From: Burkholderia oklahomensis C6786
GTDB lineage: Bacteria > Pseudomonadota > Gammaproteobacteria > Burkholderiales > Burkholderiaceae
Assembly (NCBI RefSeq): GCF_000959365.1
Contig: NZ_CP009556.1
Span: 2,728,001-2,792,000 of the forward strand
Length of the DNA stretch: 64,000 nucleotides
Direction of reading: 5' to 3'
This document shows, piece after piece, positions 50,484-57,692 of this stretch. The notes below the pieces were generated by a model that was given only the letters and a program-made list of their open reading frames with translations, was not told where the DNA came from and searched no databases. Position 1 is the stretch's first letter. Each line of letters starts with the position of its first letter. Position numbers and translations under genes: made by a program.

Positions 50484-51173
50484 ATGGACCAAAGAAAATC
50501 CACCGCCGACCGTGTTGCGAGCCCGCCGCCCCGCACCTGGGATGCGCGGCTCGCGCGCCGGCTCGTCACGCCGCTCGTCGGCACGCCGGTCACGCCCAAC
50601 CACCTCACCACGCTGCGTCTTCTGATCGGCCTTGCCGGCGCCTGGTGCCTCGCGCAACCCGGCTTCGGCTGGATCAACGCCGGTGCGTTCCTGATCGTGC
50701 TGTCCAATTTCGTCGACCATACCGACGGCGAGCTCGCGCGGATCAGCGGCCAGTCGAGCAAGCTCGGCCACTTCTACGACCTCGCGAGCGACGCGCTCGT
50801 CACGGTCGCCCTCTTCGTCAGCATGGGCGCCGGCGTCGTCGCGGCGGGGGGCCAGATGGCCGCGCCGCCCGTGCTGCTCGGCGCCGTCGCGGGCGCGGCC
50901 GTCGCGCTGATCTTCTTCCTGCGGATGCGGATCGAGTCGTTCGCCGGCAAGGCGGGCACGAAGCAGGCGTTCATCGGCGGCTTCGAGACCGAGGACGTGC
51001 TGTATCTGCTGCCCGTCGTCACGCTGCTCGACGGCGTCGAGCCGTTCCTCCTCGCGGCGGCGATCGGCGCGCCGCTCTTCGCGGCGTGGGTCGTGATCGA
51101 CTACTGGCGCATCGTGCGCCGCGGCGGCGCGTCCCGCGCGCCCCATCCAACCGAAATCCAACCGACCAAATGA
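50484..51173 (+). CDS. CDP-alcohol phosphatidyltransferase family enzyme, candidate phosphonolipid synthase
   Basis: A 229-residue integral membrane protein. It carries a perfect CDP-alcohol phosphotransferase motif D78-x2-D-G-x2-A-R-x8-G-x3-D-x3-D103 ('DHTDGELARISGQSSKLGHF'), the metal and nucleotide site of the family, and several membrane helices (about 40-60, 63-78, 103-125, 128-150, 170-215). Such enzymes move the phospho group of a CMP-activated alcohol or acid to a second alcohol. As first gene of a phosphonate operon with two cytidylyltransferases, it should take CMP-AEP (or hydroxylated CMP-AEP) and a lipid alcohol such as diacylglycerol. The acceptor is inference. ATG 50484; the stop overlaps the next start (ATGA). 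Confidence 0.88.
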   Translation: MDQRKSTADRVASPPPRTWDARLARRLVTPLVGTPVTPNHLTTLRLLIGLAGAWCLAQPGFGWINAGAFLIVLSNFVDHTDGELARISGQSSKLGHFYDLASDALVTVALFVSMGAGVVAAGGQMAAPPVLLGAVAGAAVALIFFLRMRIESFAGKAGTKQAFIGGFETEDVLYLLPVVTLLDGVEPFLLAAAIGAPLFAAWVVIDYWRIVRRGGASRAPHPTEIQPTK

Positions 51174-51943
51174 TCACGGACTCCGAAGCTCGCGCGGCGC
51201 GCGGCACGCTCGACGAAGCCGTCGCCGCGCGCGTCGGCGCGCTCGACGCCGCGCGCCTGCGCGGCGAGTTCGCGCGCCAGGACGCGTTTCTCTATCTGGA
51301 CGAGTTCCTGCCGAAGGATCTCGCCGGCCGCCTCGCCGACTGCGCCCGCGCGCTGCAGTCCGACATCAACCGCAACTACCTGCCGGGCCACAAGCAAGGC
51401 GGCAGCGTGAGCCGCCATACGATCGACGCGAAGGCGCCGTTCATCGCCGAGCTGTACCGCTCGAAGGCGCTCGTCGGCTTTCTCGAGGCGCTGACGGGCG
51501 ACAAGCTGCTGCCGTCGCCGGATGACGATCCGCACGCGTACGCGCTGTACTACTACACGAAGCCGGGCGATCACATCGGTTGGCACTACGACACGTCGTA
51601 CTACGACGGCCGCCGCTACACGCTGCTCTTCGGCGTGATCGACGATTCGTCGTCCCGGCTCGACTACGAGCTGCACACGCGCAACCCGGACGTGCCCGAC
51701 GCGCCGGGCTCGGTGCAGATCGCGCACGGCGGCATCGTGTTCTTCGACGGCGACAAGCTGCGCCACCGCGTGACGCCGCTCGGCGAGAACGAGATTCGCG
51801 TATCGCTGACGTTCGAGTACGTGACCAACCCCGGCATGCGGCCGTGGAAGCGCTTCGTGTCGAACATGAAGGACGCGATCGCGTACTTCGGCTTCCGTCA
51901 GGTATTCAAGCAAACGGCGACGCGCCGCCCGTCGCGCTCATGA
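51170..51943 (+). CDS. 2-oxoglutarate/Fe(II)-dependent oxygenase
   Basis: A 257-residue double-stranded beta-helix oxygenase of the prolyl-hydroxylase-like class. The iron triad is visible: His139 and Asp141 in GWHYDTSYYDG, His199 in KLRHRVTP, and 2-oxoglutarate-binding Arg210 in NEIRVSLTFEY. It couples 2-oxoglutarate decarboxylation to substrate hydroxylation. Inside the operon, a likely target is the AEP carbon chain (giving 1-hydroxy-AEP) or the acyl chain/lipid. Related phosphonate-pathway oxygenases such as PhnY hydroxylate AEP at carbon 1, though that one is catabolic. It overlaps both neighbours by four bases, so it belongs to the pathway. Confidence 0.88.
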   Translation: MITDSEARAARGTLDEAVAARVGALDAARLRGEFARQDAFLYLDEFLPKDLAGRLADCARALQSDINRNYLPGHKQGGSVSRHTIDAKAPFIAELYRSKALVGFLEALTGDKLLPSPDDDPHAYALYYYTKPGDHIGWHYDTSYYDGRRYTLLFGVIDDSSSRLDYELHTRNPDVPDAPGSVQIAHGGIVFFDGDKLRHRVTPLGENEIRVSLTFEYVTNPGMRPWKRFVSNMKDAIAYFGFRQVFKQTATRRPSRS

Positions 51944-52941
51944 CACGCACCGGCATGATCCTGCTGTCGCTCGGGACAGCGGCGTTCGTCGCCCTCCTCG
52001 CGTGGCAGGGCTTCGGCGCGGTCGCGGCGACGCTGTTCGCGGCCGGCTGGGGGCTCGCGCTCGTCGCGGCGTTCCATCTGGTGCCGCTCGTCATCGACGC
52101 GACCGCGATCGCGGTGATGTTCCGCAGCGGCGAGCCCGGCAGCGCGCTCGGCGACGCGCTGCGCGCGCGCTGGGTCGGCGAATCGGTGAACAGCCTGCTG
52201 CCCGCCGGGCAAATCGGCGGGCCAGTGCTGATGGTCCGCTATCTCGCGCAGCGCGGCACGCGCCTCGCGGACGCGGCGGCCGCGATCACGGTCAGCACGA
52301 CGATGCAGGCGCTCGCGCAGATGGTGTTCGCGCTCGTCGGCATCGCGGCATTCAGCGCGTACGCGACGCACGAAGCCGCCGCGCATCTGCGCACGCCGGC
52401 GCTCGTCGCGACCGCGGTGCTGGGCGGCTGCGCCGCGCTCTTCTATTTCGCGCAGCGCCGCGGCCTGTTCGGACGCGGCCTGCGCGCCGCGTCGAGGCTG
52501 CTCGGCCCGCGCGACTGGTCGTCGCTCGCGACGCGCGCGGACGCGATCGACGATGCGGTCGGCAGGCTGTACCGCGAGCGAGCGAAGGTCCGCTCGACGT
52601 TCGTGCTGAGCTTCATCGGCTGGATCGTCGGCACCGCGGAAGTATGGCTCGCGCTGCGCTTCCTCGGCCACCCGGTGAGCTGGCTCGACGCGCTGCTGCT
52701 CGAGAGCGTCGGGCAGGCGATCCGCGGCGCGGCGTTCGCGATCCCGGGCTCGCTCGGCGCGCAGGAAGGCGGCTATCTGCTGCTCGCGCCGCTCGTCGGG
52801 CTGCCGCCCGACGCGGCGCTCGCGCTGTCGCTCGCGAAGCGCGCGCGCGAGCTCGCGCTCGGCCTGCCCGGCATCCTGTATCTGCATTTCAGTGAAAGAA
52901 ACTGGCAGCGGCGGCGCGCGCCGCAGCCGATCGCCGACTGA
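51940..52941 (+). CDS. Lysylphosphatidylglycerol synthetase TM-region/YbhN-like membrane protein
   Basis: A 333-residue polytopic protein with about eight hydrophobic segments and no soluble catalytic domain. It is of the UPF0104/HpnL type ('RWVGESVNSLLPAGQIGGPV', 'FVLSFIGWIVGTAEVWLAL', 'AAFAIPGSLGAQEGGYLL'). These motifs are shared with the flippase half of MprF and with hopanoid HpnL. Such proteins are thought to move lipids across or between membranes. In this operon it is a candidate translocator for the phosphonolipid. Its start overlaps the oxygenase stop (ATGA); a 41-bp gap separates it from the following cytidylyltransferase gene. Confidence 0.8.
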   Translation: MTRTGMILLSLGTAAFVALLAWQGFGAVAATLFAAGWGLALVAAFHLVPLVIDATAIAVMFRSGEPGSALGDALRARWVGESVNSLLPAGQIGGPVLMVRYLAQRGTRLADAAAAITVSTTMQALAQMVFALVGIAAFSAYATHEAAAHLRTPALVATAVLGGCAALFYFAQRRGLFGRGLRAASRLLGPRDWSSLATRADAIDDAVGRLYRERAKVRSTFVLSFIGWIVGTAEVWLALRFLGHPVSWLDALLLESVGQAIRGAAFAIPGSLGAQEGGYLLLAPLVGLPPDAALALSLAKRARELALGLPGILYLHFSERNWQRRRAPQPIAD

Positions 52942-56610: not shown

Positions 56611-56624
56611 CAAGGAGTACGAAG

Positions 56625-57692
56625 ATGCTGTTGCTGAACCCCGGTCCCGTGACGCTGACGGAGCGCGTGCGCCGCAGCCTCCTCCAGCCGGATCTGTGCC
56701 ACCGCGAAAGCGAGTTCTTCGATCTGCAGGACGAGGCGCGCGCGCGGCTCGTCGCCGCCTACGCGCTCGATCCGGCCGAATGGAGCGCGGTGCTGATGAC
56801 GGGCTCCGGCACGGCCGCGGTCGAGAGCATGATCGCCGCGCTCGTCCCCGAAAACGGCAAGCTGCTCGTGATCGAGAACGGCGTGTACGGCGAGCGGATC
56901 ACGCAGATCGCGACGCAATACCGGATCGCGCACGACGTGTCGAAGCACGACTGGATGCAGGCGCCCGATCTCGAACGCATCGCCGGGAAGCTCGACGCCG
57001 ATCGCGCGATCACGCACGTCGCCGTGATCCATCACGAGACGACGACGGGGCGCCTGAACGGCCTCGACGCGCTCGCCGCCGTGTGCCGCGCGCGCGGCGT
57101 GCGGATGCTCGTCGACGGCGTGAGCAGCTTCGGCGCGGAAGCGATCGATTTTGCGGGCGGCGACATCGACGCCGTCGCCGCAACCGCGAACAAGTGCCTG
57201 CACGGCGTGCCGGGCGCGGCGTTCGTGATCGTGCGCCGCCGCGCGCTCGCGTCGGCCGCGAGCCGCGCGTACTACCTCGATCTCGGGCGGCTCGCGAAGC
57301 TGCAGGACGTGCGCAACACGCCGTTCACGCCGTCGGTGCATGCGTACTACGCGCTCGTCGAGGCGCTGCGCGAGTTCGACGAAGCAGGCGGCTGGCGCGC
57401 GCGCCACGCGCGCTACGCGGCGCTCGCCGAGCAGGTGAGCGCCGGGCTCGCCGCGCGCGGGATGCCGCTCGTGCTGCCGGACGGCGAATCGTCGGTCGTG
57501 CTGCGCGCTTACCGGCTCCCCGCCGGCGTCGCGTACGAGCGGCTGCACGACGGGCTCAAGGCGCGCGGCTTCGTGATCTACGCGGGCCAGGGCGGCCTGT
57601 CGAGTGAATTGTTCCGCGTGTCGACGATGGGCGCAATCGAGCCGGCGGACGTCGAACGCCTGCTCGACGGCTTCTCGGCGCTCGCGCGCTGA
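56625..57692 (+). CDS. aepZ: 2-aminoethylphosphonate:pyruvate aminotransferase-type enzyme
   Basis: A 355-residue class V, PLP-dependent aminotransferase. It opens MLLLNPGPVTLTERVRRSLL, with 'CHRESEF', 'MTGSGTAAVE', PLP Asp164 in VDGVSSFG and the PLP lysine in ATANKCLHG (Lys190). PhnW homologues interconvert phosphonoacetaldehyde and AEP. Beside PEP mutase and the decarboxylase, with no phosphonatase (phnX), it should run towards AEP. Start ATG 56625 with AAGGAG nine bases upstream. It ends the operon; a strong terminator follows 17 bp later. Confidence 0.92.
   Translation: MLLLNPGPVTLTERVRRSLLQPDLCHRESEFFDLQDEARARLVAAYALDPAEWSAVLMTGSGTAAVESMIAALVPENGKLLVIENGVYGERITQIATQYRIAHDVSKHDWMQAPDLERIAGKLDADRAITHVAVIHHETTTGRLNGLDALAAVCRARGVRMLVDGVSSFGAEAIDFAGGDIDAVAATANKCLHGVPGAAFVIVRRRALASAASRAYYLDLGRLAKLQDVRNTPFTPSVHAYYALVEALREFDEAGGWRARHARYAALAEQVSAGLAARGMPLVLPDGESSVVLRAYRLPAGVAYERLHDGLKARGFVIYAGQGGLSSELFRVSTMGAIEPADVERLLDGFSALAR

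Follow-up and report, generated by a model that had tools for sequence, protein, structure and literature searches.

What do the seven genes at positions 50484-57692 of a 64,000-nucleotide stretch of Burkholderia oklahomensis C6786 DNA (contig NZ_CP009556.1; hereafter the window) make? The operon as a whole looks like a set for lipid head-group synthesis, and it probably builds a phosphonate head group and attaches this to a C35 hopanoid. Hopanoids are the bacterial counterpart of cholesterol. A hopanoid is favoured over diacylglycerol because gene 3 encodes the hopanoid-associated protein HpnL, because the C35-hopanoid enzyme HpnH is found in all genomes with the operon among 200 Burkholderiaceae, and because most of the module lies within hopanoid clusters in other lineages. 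The initial annotation had proposed a phosphonolipid pathway, and its elements were recovered, namely synthesis of 2-aminoethylphosphonate (AEP), activation with cytidine triphosphate (CTP), a cytidine diphosphate (CDP)-alcohol phosphotransferase and a flippase-like protein. The lipid had been left open, and the transfer and its acceptor are still what we infer.

The synthesis of AEP by genes 5 to 7, previously read as the conversion of phosphoenolpyruvate (PEP) via phosphonopyruvate and phosphonoacetaldehyde to AEP, is supported by well-characterised families, all three curated models scoring over their cut-offs. The PEP mutase domain of gene 5 (53744-54643, on the + strand like all seven genes) matched TIGR02320 (404.9 bits, cut-off 319.55), gene 6 (55429-56610) the phosphonopyruvate decarboxylase model TIGR03297 (460.7 bits, cut-off 312.5) and gene 7 (56625-57692) the AEP aminotransferase model TIGR03301 (398.4 bits, cut-off 360.8). 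In gene 5 the sequence EDKQFPKTNS fits the PEP mutase motif EDK-x5-NS, and the best solved relative of the mutase domain is the PEP mutase 1m1b (E 2.3e-130). Phosphonate catabolism was rejected, the PEP mutase model being over its cut-off and the phosphonopyruvate hydrolase model under its own (246.1, cut-off 374.4). The claim that no phosphonate-degrading gene is present holds for the seven genes and their two neighbours, the part of the window scanned for such genes.

The C-terminal part of gene 5 (54644-55432; we placed the domain boundary at 54643/54644) is a fused cytidylyltransferase, and gene 4 (52983-53747) encodes a stand-alone PntC/LicC-like cytidylyltransferase; each matched NTP_transf_3 with 51.3 bits (cut-off 27). 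The best solved relative of gene 4 is the Treponema PntC-AEPT 6pd1 (40.3 bits, residues 2-246 against 4-238), and that of the gene 5 C-terminus is LicC 1jyk (57.3 bits, about half the length aligned; 6pd1 scored 22 bits). As in gene 5, 33.0% of motif-bearing PEP mutases are reported to be fused to PF12804 (PMC6697681). Judging from PntC/LicC homology, gene 4 and/or the gene 5 C-terminus likely form cytidine monophosphate (CMP)-AEP, and one of the two may serve hydroxy-AEP or another alcohol phosphate. Activation of AEP by a cytidylyltransferase, as annotated before, thus agrees with the PntC/LicC-type sequences; gene 4, the second such enzyme, had gone unnamed.

Gene 1 (50484-51173) encodes a 229-residue CDP-alcohol phosphotransferase (CDP-OH_P_transf, 54.6 bits, cut-off 22). 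Its motif D-x2-D-G-x2-A-R-x8-G-x3-D-x3-D, already described as intact, is complete, all eight residues being present (D78, D81, G82, A85, R86, G95, D99 and D103). That its acceptor lipid would be a hopanoid is something we infer from genome context alone. In a wide protein search with gene 1, 8000 candidates were scored and the best 120 taken. Gene 3 (51940-52941) encodes an HpnL-family membrane protein (TIGR03476, 380.9 bits, cut-off 195.65). HpnL carries a hopanoid-associated name, and its function is described as not established (PMC12583986, in the part consulted). The predicted structure of gene 3 had a pLDDT of 82, and its first five PDB matches were all MprF (probability 1.00, TMq 0.53-0.58, E only 0.0059-0.047).

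Gene 2 (51170-51943) encodes a 2-oxoglutarate (2OG)-Fe(II) oxygenase of the HalD family (PF23169, 49.4 bits, cut-off 26); this match and that of HpnL bear out the flippase-like protein and oxygenase of the initial annotation. The best solved relative of gene 2 is the lysine halogenase BesD (25.9 bits). Halogenases of the HalD/BesD type are recognised by loss of the metal-binding Asp. The hydroxylase-type residues H-x-D...H...R (H139, D141, H199 and R210) are kept in the nine true gene 2 rows of alignment A4, from which the motif was read after exclusion of P0001, a gene 1 protein. Halogenase activity was therefore rejected, and gene 2 is more likely a hydroxylase, since D141 of H-x-D is present and kept. 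The oxygenase in many alphaproteobacterial loci belongs to another family (the oxygenase of genome G346 has ectoine hydroxylase and phytanoyl-CoA dioxygenase as its best solved relatives), and the Roseomonas loci L148 and L149 showed no oxygenase; for these reasons AEP hydroxylation by gene 2 stays a guess.

All seven open reading frames were found where the initial annotation had placed them, with four-base overlaps at four of six junctions and gaps of 41 and 14 bases at the other two. The strong terminator assigned to the operon end, a 14-pair stem with a 4-base loop and a T run at about 57707-57738 (+), was upheld by its fold energy (-33.4 kcal/mol, z -3.05, 3 of 200 shuffles as stable); a consensus terminator and promoter scan did not list it, nor did it find a sigma-70-like promoter.

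The operon, whose gene order the initial annotation had suggested seeking in other genomes, recurs across the genus Burkholderia. The nearest genome compared (G001) is 94.9% identical in DNA to the window over 13.5 kb. A fused PEP mutase, near full length and at least 85% identical, was found in 63 of 65 genomes of the genus; G421 has the fused protein in three pieces and G413 is without it. Given this conservation, the seven-gene arrangement is not due to chance. The order 1-7 is kept in all twelve Burkholderia loci inspected for it (L059-L063, L078, L204, L205, L209, L212, L214 and L217) and also in L065, L066, L080, L128-L130, L134, L136, L138, L140, L210, L216 and L224; L131 is truncated within gene 2. 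Genome G323 has genes 1-4 on one contig and genes 5-7 on another (L124 and L064). A genome-contig scan gave 80 named loci, the best 80 of 574 relatives; among these, eleven Paraburkholderia loci bear genes 5-7 without genes 1-3 alongside (L187, L189, L191-L193, L200, L201, L203, L207, L208 and L215). Of the eleven, L203 retains gene 4, and the upstream sequence of L200 is only 0.8 kb long. Genes 1-4 and 5-7 are two modules able to part on the chromosome. The fused PEP mutase-cytidylyltransferase is present in 110 of 200 Burkholderiaceae genomes (raw count 111; G622, with a stand-alone mutase at 43%, was left out, and the matches of G502 and G586 are partial), and gene 2 is present in all 110. 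Three of the 200 genomes carry gene 2 without the fused protein (G513; partial in G582; degraded in G608).

The link to hopanoids in this family comes from co-occurrence and from position. HpnH is encoded in 110 of 110 genomes with the operon, as compared with 135 of the 200 overall, and in 65 of 65 genus Burkholderia genomes; the comparison is confounded, as the HpnH-negative genomes in the list shown are mostly small. Where both are on the same contig, gene 5 and HpnH are separated by 8-15 kb in groups g139 (18 of 18), g223 (3 of 3) and g218 (2 of 2). Groups g222 and g217 were inspected at one locus each, and there the operon has hpnN and an hpnM-like gene as neighbours. In the Pararobbsia locus L224 the transporter is HpnN over both cut-offs, and the hpnM-like protein scored 67 against an HpnM cut-off of 160. 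The annotation of Mycetohabitans rhizoxinica reads the seven genes of the operon, dxs, two hypotheticals and an MMPL transporter, followed by a substrate-binding protein in the HpnM place, ispH, hpnH, hpnA and a glycosyltransferase. This bacterium is fungus-associated, and its operon is on a megaplasmid (L079). The same hpn cluster, lacking the operon, is found in two g139 genomes (L132 and L133).

Within this family, HpnL sequences also separate by context. Genome G001 bears three HpnL paralogues: that of the operon, a second with hpnI/J/K-like genes next to it and a third with an hpnI-like neighbour. In the HpnL tree the 16 rows from Burkholderiaceae operons group in a single clade (100/99), and four hpnIJK-linked Burkholderiaceae HpnLs stand apart from it (98/95).

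Outside Burkholderiaceae, most of the module was found within hopanoid clusters at some loci. The Roseomonas aerilata locus L148 reads dxs, gene 4, PEP mutase, Ppd, HpnL, AEP aminotransferase, CDP-alcohol transferase, ispH, hpnH, hpnG and shc; shc, hpnG, hpnH and HpnL were confirmed by curated models. In the Rhodospirillales locus L163, a PhyH-type oxygenase and relatives of genes 1 and 3-6 are accompanied by part of shc, hpnG, hpnH, hpnN and hpnM; its HpnL scored 156, under its cut-off, and no AEP aminotransferase was seen in its flanks. The gene orders of alphaproteobacterial loci differ from that of the Burkholderiaceae operon. A second CDP-alcohol phosphotransferase relative, with the final motif Asp lost, is encoded in two alphaproteobacterial hopanoid-phosphonate clusters (L163:13397-14044 and L159:5027-5647). 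In L188, from Udaeobacter (Verrucomicrobiota), relatives of genes 1, 3 and 4 occur with a partial match of the HalD type and with a protein resembling HpnA that scores just under its cut-off.

Another hopanoid gene was present in 11 of 25 loci with relatives of genes 1 and 3, as against 1 of 38 (L160) without both (Fisher p 6.5e-5). Only loci of at least 12 kb entered this count, 17 shorter ones being left out, and the hopanoid-gene thresholds were set after the loci had been inspected. At the genome level, outside Burkholderiaceae, HpnH was found in 15 of 16 genomes where relatives of genes 1 and 3 lie close to the mutase and in 15 of 29 without both (p 0.007), a comparison that drew on 45 of the 80 loci, with genome completeness not given. 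The loci are not independent, so both p values overstate the case.

Two further observations concern these distant loci. The Nitrospira/Nitrosospira loci L197, L218, L222 and L220 have a fused PEP mutase-cytidylyltransferase with no gene 1 or 3 relatives seen nearby, and HpnH is present in the three of these genomes searched (L197, L218 and L220). Locus L147 comes from a record titled Mycobacterium sp. KBS0706, probably a mislabelling; its phosphonate cluster is of the alphaproteobacterial type and includes relatives of shc, hpnA and hpnB.

Several results weigh against a hopanoid product. Within the window's 64 kb, the hopanoid query set found no hopanoid gene other than HpnL, and HpnH in genus Burkholderia lies at least 497 kb from gene 5 where both share a contig (497 kb in G001). 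In the HpnH tree, the five linked Burkholderiaceae groups are on one side of a 100/100 branch, so the linkage in this family may be one event. This tree took 115 of the 135 HpnH genes (23 in genus g1 were reduced to 3); six rows in which the motif was missed were dropped (G323, G600, G616, G471, G502 and G473, among them two of three g222 rows), which left 109. Elsewhere, the flanks of five alphaproteobacterial loci of at least 12 kb with gene 1 and 3 relatives hold no hopanoid gene (L150, L153, L165, L170 and L177), and of the 11 positive loci L155 counts by HpnM alone and L188 by HpnA alone. The L188 genome is the single miss of the 16, HpnH not being found in it. Locus L181, too short for the count, carries shc, hpnH and hpnA without relatives of gene 1 or 3. 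The HpnLs near alphaproteobacterial modules fall outside the group of Burkholderiaceae operon HpnLs, and alphaproteobacterial HpnLs do not show the operon/hpnIJK split, which made the wider proposal given below slightly less probable; the HpnL of L158, beside hpnK and hpnJ, likewise lies outside the group of other hpnIJK-linked HpnLs. On the enzyme side, gene 4 has Asp, as LicC does, at the position of Treponema PntC Glu104, a residue that holds the AEP amine; at the position of Glu196, another such residue, the alignment is ambiguous.

Mutual exclusion of the operon and hpnJ was also considered. Among the 135 genomes, 68 have both, 42 the operon only, 24 HpnJ only and one neither. In raw counts, HpnJ is lacking in 8 of 8 g135 genomes with the operon and present in 12 of 13 without it, and in g139 it is lacking in 19 of 19 with the operon and present in 2 of 2 without it. 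The 109-row HpnH tree requires at least 9 changes of the operon state and at least 12 of hpnJ. Among 8 independent pairs differing in the operon, HpnJ was opposite in about 2 and the same in none, and in 9 pairs differing in HpnJ the operon was opposite in about 1; neither result is significant. The idea that the operon takes the place of hpnIJK in some genera therefore lacks statistical significance when shared ancestry is considered, which is a further point against the hopanoid proposal.

The main rival is a diacylglycerol lipid. Gene 1 would then make AEP-diacylglycerol, a carbon-phosphorus (C-P) analogue of phosphatidylethanolamine flipped by HpnL, and the hopanoid link would reflect shared transport or membrane-domain biology and not the acceptor. 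We regard this as possible but rather unlikely. Such a lipid would not be expected in hopanoid producers alone, yet all 110 Burkholderiaceae genomes with the operon encode HpnH, as do 15 of the 16 genomes from elsewhere with gene 1 and 3 relatives; nor does it predict location within shc-hpn clusters.

Two other products seem less probable still. The proposal of a phosphonoglycan or another surface polymer, in which CMP-AEP would modify a glycan or lipopolysaccharide as put forward for the pnt clusters of oral bacteria, draws on the association of PntC-type activation with phosphonyl tailoring of cell surfaces (PMC6697681). However, none of the seven genes matched the LicD-type transferase or glycosyltransferase families, the transferase here belongs to the CDP-alcohol phosphotransferases, and in other genomes it is hopanoid genes that accompany the operon, so we think this improbable. 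A small soluble antibiotic-like phosphonate, for which CMP would be a carrier handle and gene 3 the exporter, appears slightly less credible again. Some phosphonate natural-product pathways, such as those of FR-900098 and fosfomycin, do use CMP-activated intermediates and 2OG oxygenases. Unlike patchy secondary metabolites, though, this operon is kept across a whole genus; no CMP-releasing family was matched among the seven genes, and gene 1 and the hopanoid link would be left unexplained.

For the phosphonate hopanoid, a CMP-AEP donor used by the gene 1 transferase is the best-supported mechanism; the predicted CTP activation draws on homology to a characterised enzyme, and the predicted lipid transfer on the family of the transferase. 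Gene 5 would convert PEP to phosphonopyruvate, gene 6 would convert this to phosphonoacetaldehyde and gene 7 would yield AEP, from which gene 4 and/or the gene 5 C-terminus would make CMP-AEP. Gene 2 may hydroxylate AEP, CMP-AEP or the lipid. Gene 1 would then move the phosphonyl group from CMP-AEP onto a bacteriohopanepolyol hydroxyl, for example one of bacteriohopanetetrol, HpnL would flip the product, and an HpnN-type hopanoid transporter encoded elsewhere in the genome could carry it to the outer membrane.

Parts of this scheme resemble known systems. The PntC clusters of Treponema denticola and Atopobium rimae share PEP mutase, AEP and a LicC-like cytidylyltransferase with the operon, which differs in having two cytidylyltransferases, and a CDP-alcohol phosphotransferase and HpnL where those clusters have LicD-like transferases or glycosyltransferases (PMC6697681); in the passages searched, that paper mentions neither Burkholderia nor CDP-alcohol. 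The cyclitol ether pathway of bacteriohopanetetrol (HpnI-HpnK-HpnJ with HpnL) likewise adds a head group to a hopanoid, although by sugar and radical-SAM chemistry rather than phosphonate and CDP-alcohol chemistry (PMC12583986). An HpnL gene adjoins hpnI/K/J pathway genes in L119, L125 and L135, and in Burkholderiaceae the cyclitol-pathway and operon HpnL paralogues belong to different clades. The sphingophosphonolipid of Bdellovibrio stolpii bears a 1-hydroxy-2-aminoethylphosphonate head group, an AEP-type membrane head group with a hydroxylation of the kind that gene 2 could perform, but its backbone is a sphingolipid, unlike the proposed hopanoid (PMC8154272). The Bacteriovoracaceae locus L195 has a fused PEP mutase and the CDP-alcohol motif.

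No phosphonate hopanoid was described in the literature searched (titles, abstract openings and some passages, with few subscription journals), and no established Burkholderia lipid pathway of this kind turned up there, in keeping with the initial annotation. The nearest statement is a one-sentence suggestion of an 'undiscovered terpene-phosphonate' in Acetobacteraceae, where pepM is often near terpenoid genes (PMC8776678). The strains of that study include Roseomonas and Belnapia, and its section 20 mentions no hopanoid head groups, HpnL, CDP-alcohol transferase or Burkholderia. In the part consulted, PMC5472815 gives one phosphonate cluster in each of four strain rows and describes hopanoid clusters apart.

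A divergent gene for the succinyl-CoA:acetate CoA-transferase ScpC (48608-50122, - strand) precedes the operon and adjoins it in several Burkholderia loci. Upstream, DNA at about 40000-47000 matches the type VI secretion genes tssB, tssC, tssF and tssG and a TssA-like gene, and downstream lies a gene for an FtrA/GbdR-like DJ-1/AraC regulator (58942-59955, + strand).

Phosphonate clusters are mostly thought to decorate cell surfaces, with few decorated molecules known (PMC6697681). The operon points to a wider proposal, which we consider about as likely as not. Bacteriohopanepolyols esterified with AEP or hydroxy-AEP would form a new hopanoid class, the module would be alternative or additional to the cyclitol-ether genes hpnIJK, HpnL paralogues would be hopanoid flippases, head-group-specific in Burkholderiaceae, and the trait would be a core one in Burkholderia, recurring in Alphaproteobacteria. 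Hopanoids matter for membrane robustness in Burkholderia, and the operon is nearly universal in this genus of soil, plant-associated and opportunistic bacteria. If true, a phosphonate hopanoid would be a lipid type not yet described, would join surface phosphonates with hopanoids and would give HpnL a testable role. It would be a charged, sterol-like bacterial membrane lipid with a stable C-P bond, and possibly a new biomarker.

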